DNA from: Desulfobacterales bacterium CG2_30_60_27
GTDB taxonomy: Bacteria; Desulfobacterota; Desulfobulbia; Desulfobulbales; CG2-30-60-27
DNA: 38,936 bases
Direction of reading: 5' to 3'
Assembly (NCBI GenBank): GCA_001873115.1
Contig: MNYK01000098.1
Location: forward strand, 1 to 38,936
Shown: positions 33,316 to 38,936 of the stretch, one piece after another
How the letters are laid out: each line of letters opens with the position of its first letter
Numbering within the stretch: the first letter of the stretch is position 1
The notes under the pieces: generated by a model
Seen by the model: only the letters and a program-made list of their open reading frames with translations
Told to the model about the DNA's origin: nothing
Databases searched by the model: none
Translations under genes and position numbers: made by a program

Positions 33316-34143
33316 ATGACAGCGAATACCTGGATTGAGCGCTTCGGGTTGCGGCAGAACCCGTTCAAGGACACCCTGGACACCTCGCTTTTTTTCAGAA
33401 CCAGGCAGCACGAAGAGGCCCTTATCCGCTTGCGCATCGGCCTGGAGGATGGCCACGCCATTATTCTGCTGACCGGGCCCTCGGGCACCGGTAAGACCAT
33501 CGCCACCCAGGTGGTGCTTCGGGCCATGGACCGCAGCCGCTATGCGCCGGTCTTTGTCTTCGCTTACCCGGGCATGACCAGGGGCACCATGCTGGGCGCG
33601 ATTCTTAAGGAGTTGGGGGTGGTGGACATCCCGCCCTTCGCCGCCCAGCGTTTGACCATGCTGCAGGAAAAGGCCATGACCCTGCATGCCGGCGGCTGGC
33701 GGCTGGTGATTTTTTTGGACGAGGCCCATTTTCTCAAGGCCGACGTTCTGCACGTGCTGCGCACCCTGTCCAATTTTGAGACTGAACAGGAGAAACTGGT
33801 CACCGTGCTCCTGGTGGCCGAAGATTCGTTGCTGCGGCGGCTCAAGGCCCCACCGTACGCCTCGTTGCTCAGCCGCATCACCTTTGCCGTTACCCTGGAA
33901 GCGCTTTCCCGAGCCGAGACCGAACAGTACATCAAGTACCGGTTGCTAAAAAGCGGCGCCCAGCCCAACCTGCTGACCCCGGATGCCTATGCCGCGGCCC
34001 ACGACCACAGCGGCGGCGTGCCCCGCGCGGTCAACCGCCTGCTCTACAACAGCTTTATCGAGGCCATGGGCCAGGACACCACGGTCATCACCTCCGAGGT
34101 GCTGACGCGCGCCGAACAACGCATGGCGGTGCTGCGTGGGTAA
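33316..34143 (+). CDS. ExeA/GspA-like AAA+ ATPase
   Basis: FGLRQNPFKDTLDTSLFFRTRQHEEAL, LLTGPSGTGKT, LVIFLDEAHFL. Confidence 0.88.
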   Translation: MTANTWIERFGLRQNPFKDTLDTSLFFRTRQHEEALIRLRIGLEDGHAIILLTGPSGTGKTIATQVVLRAMDRSRYAPVFVFAYPGMTRGTMLGAILKELGVVDIPPFAAQRLTMLQEKAMTLHAGGWRLVIFLDEAHFLKADVLHVLRTLSNFETEQEKLVTVLLVAEDSLLRRLKAPPYASLLSRITFAVTLEALSRAETEQYIKYRLLKSGAQPNLLTPDAYAAAHDHSGGVPRAVNRLLYNSFIEAMGQDTTVITSEVLTRAEQRMAVLRG

Positions 34144-34337
34144 GATCAGCCGGCTGCGTCTGCATGTGGCGCCAGCACCGCGGGACTGGCGGACTGAAGG
34201 CATCCGGCCCGAGGAGTTGGACTTGTTGTGCTGCGGCGCAGGTTCGCGGCAAGAGTTGTTAGGCGTTGCGCAAGGAAGGTCCAACCCCAGGCCCGCCAAG
34301 CGGGGGAAGCGACGCGTAGGCTGAATCAGGTGGTCAC

Positions 34338-34377
34338 TTCAGCAAATCAAACGGCGATAACCTTGAGATGCGCCTGC
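34338..34377. repeat. 40-bp exact direct repeat, copy 1: remnant of a higA 3' end (minus strand ...SRQAHLKVIAV*)
   Basis: TTCAGCAAATCAAACGGCGATAACCTTGAGATGCGCCTGC identical to 37881-37920. Confidence 0.95.
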
Positions 34378-34458
34378 CTGCTGAGGGGTAAAAACTTTGA
34401 AACTCAAGAGCGATATATGCTCGCAAACGTCCTGCCGCGTTATTGAATCAGTTAATAG

Positions 34459-35634
34459 TTAAGGTTTGACCCTCTTTCCCTGCTCTATGCGGCATCTGAG
34501 GCTAAAGTTCTTGGACATGGCGGCATATCGATCGTTCAGAAGGCCACTGGAGTGGCACGAGGCTCAATCAAGCAAGGGTTGAAGGAGCTCTTCCCTTCAC
34601 AGCGAACGGAAGCAGCAGGAGATGATGCCAGCCGGAGGATACGCCGCAAAGGAGGGGGCAGAAAGGCATCCGTTAAAGACAATGCGGAATTGCTCGCCGC
34701 ATTGGAAAGCCTGGTCGAGCCGGTCACGCGCGGCGACCCCGAATCTCCGTTGCGTTGGACCTGCAAGAGTTTACGACATCTGGAAGCCGAGTTGCGGTCG
34801 GAGGGGTATGTCGTCAGCCATACTTCGATAGGCGATCTGCTGAAGAAGTTGGGCTATAGCCTTCAGGGTAACCGCAAGACACTGGAGGGAGGTGATCACC
34901 CTGATCGTAATGCCCAGTTTGAGTTTATTAATACCCGAGCGGAAAATGCCATGCGTAATGGGCAGCCGGTAATTTCAGTTGACACCAAGAAAAAAGAGTT
35001 GGTCGGGCAATACAAAAACGGTGGAAAAGAGTTACGGCCAAAGGGGGAACCTGAACAAGTCAACGTGTATGACTTTGTTGATAAGGATTTGGGTCGAGCA
35101 AACCCTTATGGTGTTTACGATATAAGCAATAATTTTGGCTGGGTCAGCGTCGGCACCGATCACGACACGGCAAGTTTTGCGGTAGCCACAATACGCCGCT
35201 GGTGGTTTGGAATGGGCAAGGAACTCTATTCTGACGCCAAAGAGTTGTTAATCACGGCTGATGGCGGTGGTAGCAATGGTTCCTGTGTACGATTGTGGAA
35301 ACTTGAATTGCAAAAATTGGCCAATGAACTTGACATTCCTATTCGAGTCAGTCATTTCCCCCCGGGAACAAGCAAGTGGAACAAGATTGAACATCGACTG
35401 TTTTCTTACATCAGCATGAACTGGCGAGGGAAACCACTGGTTAGACATGAAGCGATTGTCAATTTGATTGCGGCCACCACAACCAGAAAAGGCTTGAAAG
35501 TGAAAGCAGAGCTTGACTCCAGTCATTATCCTACGGGCATCAAAGTCACAGATAAAGAACTCAAAACAATACGTATTTTACGTGAAGATTTTCATGGCGA
35601 ATGGAATTATTCAATCGTTCCAATCGAAAGCTAA
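34459..35634 (+). pseudogene. ISAzo13-type transposase, N-terminally truncated (homology begins near LLYAASEAKVLGHGGISIVQKATGV)
   Basis: Frame open from 34459 after an in-frame TAG at 34456; ISAzo13-like body RWTCKSLRHLEAEL..., VISVDTKKKELVGQYKNGGKE, ITADGGGSNGSCVRLWK, SHFPPGTSKWNKIEHRLFS. Confidence 0.8.
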
Positions 35635-35666
35635 GTGTCCATGTTATTATTTTACGGATCCTAAGC

Positions 35667-35673
35667 GTTGGGC
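35667..35673 (+). other. Possible attC R' core (GTTGGGC) marking the 5' boundary of the R-M cassette
   Basis: CTAAGCGTTGGGC between the transposase stop and the methyltransferase; matches GTTRRRY but no intact partner R'' seen. Confidence 0.45.
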
Positions 35674-35723
35674 CGCTAGAAAATAAACTTCACAATATCG
35701 CCCAATAGGGTATATTCCTGCCT

Positions 35724-36596
35724 ATGAAACGAGAAAAAATCATACGGCCAAAGCCATTCAAGATCGACAGCCCTGTTATTTTTGAAGGGGATTCCTTGCA
35801 TATTTTAACAAGGATTCCATCTGAATCCGTTCAGTGCGTCGTGACATCTCCGCCATACTGGGGGTTGCGCGATTATGGCGTAGTTGGCCAGATTGGTCTT
35901 GAGACATCTCTGCACCAATTTATCAACAAATTGGTTGCGATTTTTTCTGAAGTTAAACGTGTATTAAAGCCGGATGGTATCTTGTGGTTAAACATCGGGG
36001 ACGGATACACGAGTGGCAACAGGGGATACCGCGCACCTGATAAAAAAAATCCTGCCAGAGCCATGTCAATTCGCCCTGATACACCAGAAGGATTAAAGCC
36101 AAAAGATTTACTTGGTATCCCATGGCGTCTGGCTTTTGCGCTACAAGATGACGGCTGGTATCTTCGCAGCGATATAGTATGGAATAAACCAAATGCTATG
36201 CCGGAAAGTGTAAAAGATCGTCCCATAAGATCACATGAATATTTGTTTATGCTAACCAAATCAGAAAAATATTATTACAATCACGAAGTTGTTAAAGAAC
36301 AAGGTGCCAATGGGAAATTGAGAAGTCGGCGCAGTGTGTGGGACATCAATACACAAGCATTCCCAGGGGCTCACTTCGCCACCTTCCCCCCCAGCCTCAT
36401 TGAGCCATGCGTCCTTGCGTCAACGCGCCAAGGAGATTTTGTGTTAGACCCATTTTTTGGTTCTGGTACTGTAGGCGTTGTTTGCCAAATTCACGACAGG
36501 CCATATGTCGGCATAGAATTACATTCAGAGTACGTTGCCATGGCAGCGGAGCGTCTCAGAGTGCTACACGACAACATCATACGGATAGCCATATAA
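35724..36596 (+). CDS. Beta-class DNA methyltransferase (TSPPYW; probably N4-cytosine, type II R-M)
   Basis: VTSPPYWGLRDYG motif IV near the N-terminus and LDPFFGSGTVGVVC motif I near the C-terminus. Confidence 0.92.
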   Translation: MKREKIIRPKPFKIDSPVIFEGDSLHILTRIPSESVQCVVTSPPYWGLRDYGVVGQIGLETSLHQFINKLVAIFSEVKRVLKPDGILWLNIGDGYTSGNRGYRAPDKKNPARAMSIRPDTPEGLKPKDLLGIPWRLAFALQDDGWYLRSDIVWNKPNAMPESVKDRPIRSHEYLFMLTKSEKYYYNHEVVKEQGANGKLRSRRSVWDINTQAFPGAHFATFPPSLIEPCVLASTRQGDFVLDPFFGSGTVGVVCQIHDRPYVGIELHSEYVAMAAERLRVLHDNIIRIAI

Positions 36597-36605
36597 ACGA
36601 CATTC

Positions 36606-37568
36606 ATAAAAATTCCTCCTCCTGAACTTCAAATCGATTTTTCCTACGCTCTCGGTCAAATACGAAACACCTACCTCCAAGAAGCCTTAAGCAAAGCTGT
36701 TGACGCAATTGACATTTCTATCCTTGACCATCAACTTTCCGAACTTGTCCCGGCAGCAAGCTTAAAGGCATTGGCACGGCATGGACTTCGAGGCGAGCTT
36801 GTTTTTTCTGTCCCACATCTTCTTGAAAATTCTCCAAAATTAATTGCGTATTACCGTCTATTGTTGGGGTTTAGCCAAAAAGCATTTTATTCTTCTGACT
36901 TTGGTTTGTCTGGTTTCAAATCAATGGAGGGAAAAGGCTTTTTGTCTGCAAACACAAGGAAGCTATTGCCAGAGTTGTGTAACTCTTTAATTAAAAGTTC
37001 ATGCTTGCTTTTAGATGGTATCGGGACGGATAGAGTTAGCAAACAATTACTTGATGACCTCACATTACTTACGGTTGGCCCACAACTTAGAGGTGGCGCC
37101 AATGTTAGAAAAGGAGTTGTAGGAATAGTTAAAGTATTTGAAGCAATTCATAAAATTGTTAAGCGCGGGGCTACTCTTTCGTCTGAAAGTAAAATAGAGA
37201 CATTAAACGCTGCCGGACGAAAAGTTGTCATAGAATTCGCCCCCGATCCAGATATAGTAATTCGAGAGGAAATATCACCTCAGACATACAGAAATATCAT
37301 TGCAATAGAAGTAAAAGGCGGCACTGATTTCTCTAATATCCATAATAGAATTGGTGAAGCAGAAAAAAGCCATCAAAAAGCCAAGGCAAGAGGCTATGTA
37401 GAATGCTGGACCGTCGTTAACGTTGACCGAATTGATTTGCCAATGGCCCACCAAGAGTCGCCTTCAACCAATCGATTTTATCTTTTAAGCGATTTATCCT
37501 CTGAAAGCGCTGAGTACCAAGATTTCCGAGCAAGGATTATTTCTCTTACGGGAACAAAAGGGAAATAA
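36606..37568 (+). CDS. XcyI-like type II restriction endonuclease; no canonical start codon at the expected N-terminus
   Basis: IKIPPPELQIDFSYALGQIRNTYLQEALSKAVDAIDISILDHQLSELVPAASLKALARHGLRGELVFSVPHLLEN...; PD-(D/E)XK-like DPDIVIREE...IIAIEVKGGTDFSNIHNRIGEAEKSHQKA; the ORF track begins only at TTG 36771. Confidence 0.75.
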   Translation: MKIPPPELQIDFSYALGQIRNTYLQEALSKAVDAIDISILDHQLSELVPAASLKALARHGLRGELVFSVPHLLENSPKLIAYYRLLLGFSQKAFYSSDFGLSGFKSMEGKGFLSANTRKLLPELCNSLIKSSCLLLDGIGTDRVSKQLLDDLTLLTVGPQLRGGANVRKGVVGIVKVFEAIHKIVKRGATLSSESKIETLNAAGRKVVIEFAPDPDIVIREEISPQTYRNIIAIEVKGGTDFSNIHNRIGEAEKSHQKAKARGYVECWTVVNVDRIDLPMAHQESPSTNRFYLLSDLSSESAEYQDFRARIISLTGTKGK

Positions 37569-37569
37569 G

Positions 37570-37624
37570 GCCCAACGAATAAGGTTAGATCACGCGAAGC
37601 CGTGATCTGAACCGTTTGTTGGAC
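37570..37624 (+). other. attC-like integron recombination site directly downstream of the endonuclease stop codon
   Basis: R'' GCCCAAC ... GGTTAGATCACG-cgaagc-CGTGATCTGAACC ... R' GTTGGAC; arms pair with one extrahelical base. Confidence 0.78.
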
Positions 37625-37821
37625 AAGCCCGGTGGTCATATTATAGAAAAGAGCTTTTGAGTCTGAGGTTGCCGAATCAGGTATGTGACCCGTTGCGAGG
37701 CGGGGAGAGGTGGCGGGATGCTCTTTGCTGAAGATTTTGTCTATTCATCGTTCTTTTGTGGCTGTTTTGAGGCGTTTTTCAGGCGCAACTGAGTTGGAAG
37801 TTGTTGGAAGTTGGGGACGGT

Positions 37822-37882
37822 TGGAAGTTGGGGACGTTCTTAACATTTAAAGTTTTACGCTCATGCCCAACCACTTTCATTT
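37822..37882. repeat. 61-bp direct repeat, left copy flanking the TA module
   Basis: TGGAAGTTGGGGACGTTCTTAACATTTAAAGTTTTACGCTCATGCCCAACCACTTTCATTT; 60/61 identical to 38657-38717. Confidence 0.97.
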
Positions 37883-37920
37883 CAGCAAATCAAACGGCGA
37901 TAACCTTGAGATGCGCCTGC
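37881..37920. repeat. 40-bp exact direct repeat, copy 2, covering the 3' end of higA
   Basis: Identical to 34338-34377. Confidence 0.95.
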
Positions 37921-38225
37921 TGCCGTGAGCGGGGCATGGGTTTAATGGTGATCTGCACATCACGGCCAAGCGCATTCAGGAATTGGAGCAGCCGTTCCAT
38001 GGAAAAGCCTGACAGTTTGCCCCGGGTCAAGGCGGATACCTTGGGCTGGTCGATGCCGAGGAGTTCAGCGGCCTGGGTCTGGGTCAGACGGCGGCTGCCG
38101 ATAATGGCGAGGATCTGGCGGGCCAGTTCCGCCTTGGCGAGGCGTTCTTCGGCATCGGGCAGGCCAAGGTCGGCGAAAACATTGCCGCTGCCGTTATATA
38201 CTTCGATCTTTTCTTTCATGCTCAC
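37890..38225 (-). CDS. higA: XRE-family antitoxin (HigA-like)
   Basis: HTH LTQTQAAELLGIDQPKVSALTRGKLSGFSMERLLQFLNALGRDVQITI; adjacent downstream of the toxin gene; start MSMKEKIE or MKEKIE. Confidence 0.88.
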   Translation of the reverse strand: MSMKEKIEVYNGSGNVFADLGLPDAEERLAKAELARQILAIIGSRRLTQTQAAELLGIDQPKVSALTRGKLSGFSMERLLQFLNALGRDVQITIKPMPRSRQQAHLKVIAV

Positions 38226-38590
38226 TAGCCCCTCTTGCCGTGGTGCAGGCCTTCCGCTATTTTCAGGCGGGTTTTGATTTTCTCTATCTCTTCCTTCGGA
38301 GTGGTGATGCCCTGTTTCGATTTTTTCTGGAAAACGTGCAGGACGTAGACGGCATCGCTGAATCTGACGGTATAGACAGCCCGGTACGTATCCGCGCGGT
38401 AATCCTCGACGATTTCCAGTACTCCGGCGCCGGTGAATCCCTTCAGCGGTTTTGCGTCGGGGTGTTTGTCGCCAAGCTGGGCAAGATAGAGGGCAAAGCC
38501 GTAAGTATCCCGTACCTCTTCCGGCATGGACTTCATGTCCTTATGGCTGCTGCCTACCCATGCAAGGGGCTTTAAGGACTTGGCTGGCAA
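38225..38590 (-). CDS. higB: HigB/Gp49-type toxin (RelE-like); likely TTG start at 38590
   Basis: KPLAWVGSSHKDMKSMPEEVRDTYGFALYLAQLGDKHPDAKPLKGFTGAGVLEIVEDYRADTYRAVYTVRF. Confidence 0.88.
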   Translation of the reverse strand: MPAKSLKPLAWVGSSHKDMKSMPEEVRDTYGFALYLAQLGDKHPDAKPLKGFTGAGVLEIVEDYRADTYRAVYTVRFSDAVYVLHVFQKKSKQGITTPKEEIEKIKTRLKIAEGLHHGKRG

Positions 38591-38656
38591 ATTTTTATTA
38601 TGACAATTCTGGCATAATTGCGCAAGGTTTTTCTTCAACAGTGTCGGGAGCAAGGG

Positions 38657-38717
38657 TGGAAGTTGGGGACGTTCTTAACATTTAAAGTTTTACGCTCATG
38701 CCCAACCACTTCCATTT
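38657..38717. repeat. 61-bp direct repeat, right copy flanking the TA module
   Basis: 60/61 identical to 37822-37882. Confidence 0.97.
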
Positions 38718-38770
38718 AGGAGCCGTTACGAAATAACTTGGCCATTTATATTGATTTCGTTACGGCTCCT
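38718..38770. repeat. REP-like hairpin: 17-bp near-perfect inverted repeat
   Basis: AGGAGCCGTTACGAAAT ... ATTTCGTTACGGCTCCT, 16/17 paired. Confidence 0.85.
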
Positions 38771-38821
38771 TATGCCGCTCCAGTCAACTCGTTGGCCATG
38801 TTATTTTTTTACAGCGGCTTA

Positions 38822-38936
38822 CTCCTCAAGAGCGCCGCCGTTCCCATTGCCACCCTCATGAGCCGGTTGCTGACCGGTTACGCGGTTTCGTGCAACCACC
38901 GCCATGGCCGACACGGCCACGTCTTTCAGAATCGCT
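38822..38936 (+). pseudogene. Fragment of a REP-associated tyrosine transposase (Y1_Tnp), lacking its N-terminus; continues past the window edge
   Basis: Frame reads LLKSAAVPIATLMSRLLTGYAVSCNHRHGRHGHVFQNR, matching the conserved RAYT segment following the HUH motif. Confidence 0.75.

Follow-up and report, generated by a model that had tools for sequence, protein, structure and literature searches.

A higBA toxin-antitoxin pair between two copies of the left end of a decayed TIRtron-type RAYT element

Near the end of the window, by which is meant the whole stretch of DNA that was analyzed (38,936 nucleotides from Desulfobacterales bacterium CG2_30_60_27), a higBA toxin-antitoxin (TA) pair lies between two nearly identical repeats. 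The arrangement raises the question of what the repeats are and how the pair came to be enclosed by them. The initial annotation had described higBA as bracketed by 61-bp direct repeats that agree at 60 of 61 positions, and this was confirmed: the copies, at 37822-37882 and 38657-38717, are on the same strand and the pair between them is intact. Their starts are 835 bp apart, an arrangement expected 0 times on the basis of 100 shuffles. The longest ungapped repeat register around them is 64 bp at 97% identity, with nothing longer. The features of the locus, in window coordinates, are the following.

34302-38936: window part of an island of about 5.35 kb absent from the congener's syntenic site; about 715 bp more lie in contig C103
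34334-34377, minus strand: second copy of the higA 3' end, 44 bp, 43 of 44 positions identical to 37877-37920
34391-34413, minus strand: diverged terminal inverted repeat (TIR) of the RAYT family of the 61-mers, directly beside the higA remnant (E 0.0046)
37793-37821, plus strand: nested partial copies of flank and element start, with GTTGGAAGTT at 37793, GTTGGAAGTTGGGGACG at 37803 and the next beginning at 37820
37822-37882, plus strand: left 61-mer, flank TGGAAGTT, TIR and RAYT codons TLMPNHFH, a stump
37830-37856, plus strand: RAYT-family TIR (left end), left copy; inverted partner pattern in L092
37890-38225, minus strand: higA-type antitoxin gene (HTH_37), by profile match
38225-38653, minus strand: higB-type toxin gene (Gp49/RelE superfamily); the true start may be internal
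38657-38717, plus strand: right 61-mer, flank, TIR and RAYT HUH codons
38665-38691, plus strand: RAYT-family TIR (left end), right copy, matching the TIR model
38719-38818, plus strand: 100-bp MITE, bordered by TTA at each side, that interrupts the RAYT frame between H and LLLKS
38819-38936, plus strand: body of the RAYT pseudogene (LLLKSAAVPIATLMSRLLTGYAV...), which extends into C103 as far as an inverted TIR (C103:12488-12510)

The repeats as the left end of a RAYT element

Both genes of the pair are complete. The antitoxin matched HTH_37 over profile positions 1-80 of 80 (1.7e-29) and the toxin matched Gp49 over positions 1-90 of 90 (1.5e-23). With a RelE-superfamily toxin and an HTH antitoxin adjacent and full length, the pair is a predicted higBA type II TA module. 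A search of a plasmid collection gave distant matches only, confined to the TA genes, and Rfam gave no match within 33900-38936 at E values up to 1.

Each 61-mer is made up of 8 bp of local flank, a 27-nt TIR (GGGGACGTTCTTAACATTTAAAGTTTT) and the RAYT codons TLMPNHFH, which carry the HUH motif; the third-frame translation reads SFTLMPNHFH directly after the TIR. The RAYT part is in both cases a deletion-fused gene piece spanning the HUH motif, and in the left 61-mer the left end is truncated and fused to the 3' flank of higA. The TIR was found, alone or in diverged form, at other places in the genome as well as in other genera, and in contig G032:C75 it stands on both sides of a RAYT gene as inverted terminal repeats. 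At the window locus, TIRs are likewise present at both gene ends, at 38665 and, inverted, at C103:12488-12510. On sequence grounds, the left end of a single decayed TIRtron-type RAYT element is present twice, as the two 61-mers; the duplication proposed earlier is upheld, and its source is the RAYT element. The 8-bp flank is common to both copies and is not conserved outside the TIRs at other sites. Since this identical flank is not part of the element, one copy was made from the other locally and not by independent transposition.

Other identities of the 61-mer were considered. That it is a REP hairpin or GTAG REP was rejected, as neither the TIR nor the 61-mer has a stable fold: the 27-nt TIR gave 0 kcal/mol, the 61-mer folded no better than shuffles, and no GTAG tag was present. 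An attC or integron origin was rejected because no RYYYAAC...GTTRRRY pair surrounds higBA.

The RAYT fragment reported beside the right repeat is real. After the MITE, the RAYT body shares 73% identity with an uninterrupted RAYT across 79 aa, and the part in C103 matched NF047646 REP_Tyr_transpos at 4.8e-8, a score under the family cut-off because this part is truncated. The gene is broken by the MITE, by a frame change and by loss of its N-terminal part. Because the cognate RAYT is broken, present mobility is unproven, and we know of no transposase activity in this RAYT family. The REP-like hairpin noted at the same place also exists, but it is not a REP of the RAYT; it belongs to the separate MITE that was inserted, with flanking TTA, into the RAYT gene. 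The MITE family is dispersed in the genome and in the order. Seven copies, the window copy included, were seen in the genome with their first 51 bp identical (L094-L099), and similar copies of about 100 bp occur across the order (L032-L044). Both MITE ends are similar in sequence to the right end of the ISAzo13 element (34552-35634).

TIRtrons (TIRYT) have been described as RAYT genes with terminal inverted repeats that begin with GGGG (Di Nocera et al. 2013, PMC3733652), and most TIRtron-type RAYTs are placed in TnpAREP subclass 2.1 (Quentin et al. 2018, PMC6006769). The element described here resembles them in its RAYT-type Y1 gene, HUH motif, long C-terminal part, TIRs beginning with GGGG and absence of GTAG REPs. 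The Y1 gene with its HUH motif and the inverted TIRs at both gene ends thus assign it, as predicted from these features, to the TIRtron type. Its TIR motif, GGGGACG(T/C), is near but not exactly GGGGWSAS; in GGGGACGT, positions 1-6 fit and position 7 is G, not A. Unlike the published TIRtrons, the window copy is a pseudogene with an interrupting MITE. Furthermore, TA pairs between the ends are not mentioned in the accessible text of either paper, and among open-licence literature, as far as its text was available, no paper was found that links TIRtron-type RAYTs with TA pairs. REPtrons and REPINs, which have GTAG REPs, share with the locus the non-autonomous short ends scattered around a Y1 transposase gene, but here there is no hairpin and the copies are few, not hundreds. 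A TA pair has been reported as integral to the transposition module of Tn3-family transposons (PMC7157771); the window pair is similarly tied to a transposable element, but it is flanked by copies of the end of a Y1 element.

In integron TA cassettes, a TA pair is inserted as a short accessory segment close to an attC-like site. By contrast, no attC-like pair brackets higBA, and the only one in the window (37570-37624) is downstream of restriction-modification (R-M) genes. These genes, an N4/N6 methyltransferase and an XcyI-type restriction endonuclease at 35667-37624, look like an integron cassette themselves, lying between a GTTGGGC core site (35667) and that sole attC-like site, which is 55 nt long and folds well. 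Elsewhere (G000:C29:696-1975; L052, L058, L059), a two-piece integron-integrase-like gene, under the TIGR02249 cut-off, is directly beside a RAYT gene.

The island, its congener and the search for further copies

The repeats belong to an island that is missing from congener G001. Window positions 33932-34301 correspond to positions 1-370 of L129 (86%) and C103rc 1029-1813 to L129 559-1347 (85%), so that the congener has 188 bp in place of about 5.35 kb. The island contains the 44-bp higA tail (the last 10 codons or so plus 13 bp) with the diverged TIR, a site that belonged to the training set of the TIR model, followed by the ISAzo13 element, the R-M pair, the repeats with higBA, the MITE and the RAYT remnant. 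The congener has a higBA at a different locus that is 96.6% identical and has neither repeat; the 61-mer is therefore not an ordinary part of a higBA locus. As the backbones of window and congener are only 85-87% identical, higBA has moved between lineages after the backbone diverged.

A genome-wide search with the 61-mer gave one additional match, at the end of contig C103. It was rejected as an independent third copy, as the C103 end overlaps window positions 38624-38936 with 2 SNPs in 313 bp; synteny with the congener also contradicts a third copy, C103 being the continuation of the window locus. Segments of 49 nt and 29 nt from the repeat had no exact match in genome_contigs. Searches of the genome and, with the repeat core, of 257 relatives revealed no solo 61-mer marking excision, no single-repeat empty allele and no second cargo between 61-mers.

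Related arrangements in other genomes

Equivalent structures with other contents were found. In G032:C107, from another family, repeats of 75/76 bp stand 828 bp apart and consist of a flank (GGATAAAG), the TIR and the RAYT 5' end. They bracket a HigA-like HTH gene and a small putative RelE-like gene, and nested flank copies lie to the left of the left repeat. The putative toxin had no match in Pfam, NCBIfam or PDB sequences, and its proposed identity comes from its size, its HTH neighbor and plasmid relatives that have HTH genes next to them. Two TIRs in G016:C10, spaced 849 bp apart, enclose vapBC, and one of them heads a RAYT gene. Other genes between the same repeats, suggested earlier as a test, were thus found as other TA pairs between equivalent repeats in other genomes, but not between the 61-mers themselves. 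With respect to the TIRs, the TA genes are oriented differently in the window and in G032, and there is no fixed unit. The opposite orientation in G032, G035 and G038 also led to the rejection of a rule by which the TIR would always stand 3' of the TA operon in a single orientation. Separately, in G035:C109 (L173) three like-oriented TIRs, spaced at about 1.17 kb, enclose a 286-aa gene that had no NCBIfam match, together with a ParE-like toxin and its small partner gene.

The association was evaluated at TIR loci that were found by a sequence-only model and excluded from building it. A TA-type gene was within 500 bp at 9 of 19 such loci, one of the nine being a type IV AbiEii fragment, compared with 5.3% of control bases. 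The binomial probability was 1.8e-7 at this base rate and 0.0012 with the rate tripled, and Fisher's test on loci (19 TIR loci vs. 20 control stretches) gave p = 0.012. The control, in which all ORFs were scanned, was 20 stretches (58.6 kb) of the bacterium's own genome, a single and mostly genic source, with TA-type genes in 2 stretches. The enrichment is accordingly a lead, not proof. In several related bacteria, ends of the TIR family lie next to TA genes at a higher than expected frequency, which suggests repeated capture there.

Short nested copies of the local flank with GGGGACG occur directly outside TIRs in the window (37793-37836) and in C94, C100, G032:C75, G035:C109, G016:C31 and G038:C38. 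Among 23 sites outside model training, 8 had an extra GGGACG in the 34 nt upstream of the TIR, compared with 1.8% of background windows (binomial 5e-9, with some of the 23 sites in one cluster and not all independent). The nested copies may be read as products of repeated restart at one flank position.

Possible origins and their significance

The account that seems on balance somewhat probable is that the repeats are copied left ends of the decayed TIRtron RAYT and that higBA was captured by duplicative template switching at the transposase-processed left end. An ancestral RAYT element would have stood at this spot, its left end possibly fragile through nicking by the Y1 transposase, and repair or replication there would have copied the left end. 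At a short stretch of similarity, TCAYTTCAGC, synthesis would have switched to a copy of higBA as template, replicated the pair and then gone back to the flank, giving repeat-higBA-repeat. The short flank and GGGGACG copies to the left would be smaller products of such an event. Captured TA pairs are probably retained because they are addictive.

The possibility was also considered that a plain segmental history produced the locus: higBA and the RAYT left end became neighbors, both segments were duplicated in tandem, and later deletions and insertions (ISAzo13, the R-M cassette) removed most of the first higBA, leaving the 44-bp tail at 34334 and the left 61-mer. A simple tandem duplication followed by deletion would yield a very similar sequence. 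The higA tail (34334-34377, 43/44), next to a further TIR, is consistent with the loss of a first higBA, and TCAYTTCAGC could be a microhomology junction. This history alone, however, leaves unexplained both the nested flank and GGGGACG copies and the G032 structure with its different TA pair, and it is considered unlikely. The order of duplication, deletion and higBA arrival is not fixed by the sequence. A highly improbable alternative is that the repeat pair or the contig end is an artefact of misassembled strain variants. The contig breaks next to the right repeat at the window end, and the 313-bp overlap contains 2 SNPs, but the right junction agrees in both contigs, the congener synteny fits and an unrelated assembly (G032) has an analogous structure.

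The initial annotation had proposed a repeat-TA-repeat cassette that could excise, amplify or be mobilized by a RAYT. In its strict form, the left end and TA pair would have moved as cargo of an active RAYT of the family and inserted beside existing left ends with duplication of the 8-bp flank. The recurrence of TIR-TA-TIR in three genomes (window, G032 and G016), the TA-type genes near 9 of the 19 TIR loci and the movement of higBA between species are consistent with mobilization. Nevertheless, it is judged distinctly improbable, since neither a second identical unit nor an empty single-repeat allele was found in the genome or relatives, TA orientation is not fixed, no common unit boundary exists on the side opposite the TIR, and the RAYT at the locus is itself broken; in the congener, the entire island is missing. 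The cassette is thus unproven. The 61-mers could still recombine to drop higBA, and nothing shows that they do.

A broader and rather doubtful proposal is that TIRtron-type RAYTs repeatedly capture or carry TA pairs, with Y1 processing of the left end, marked by the flank and GGGGACG copies, creating insertions in which TA genes persist as cargo. This would be a previously unreported route of TA spread in the order. RAYTs are widespread Y1 transposases. If their ends gather TA pairs by a recurrent duplicative process, RAYTs would have an effect that is visible in genomes, and TA modules would have a means of spreading. Moreover, the flank and GGGGACG copies, if read correctly, would be a sequence footprint of transposase action that is testable in vitro.
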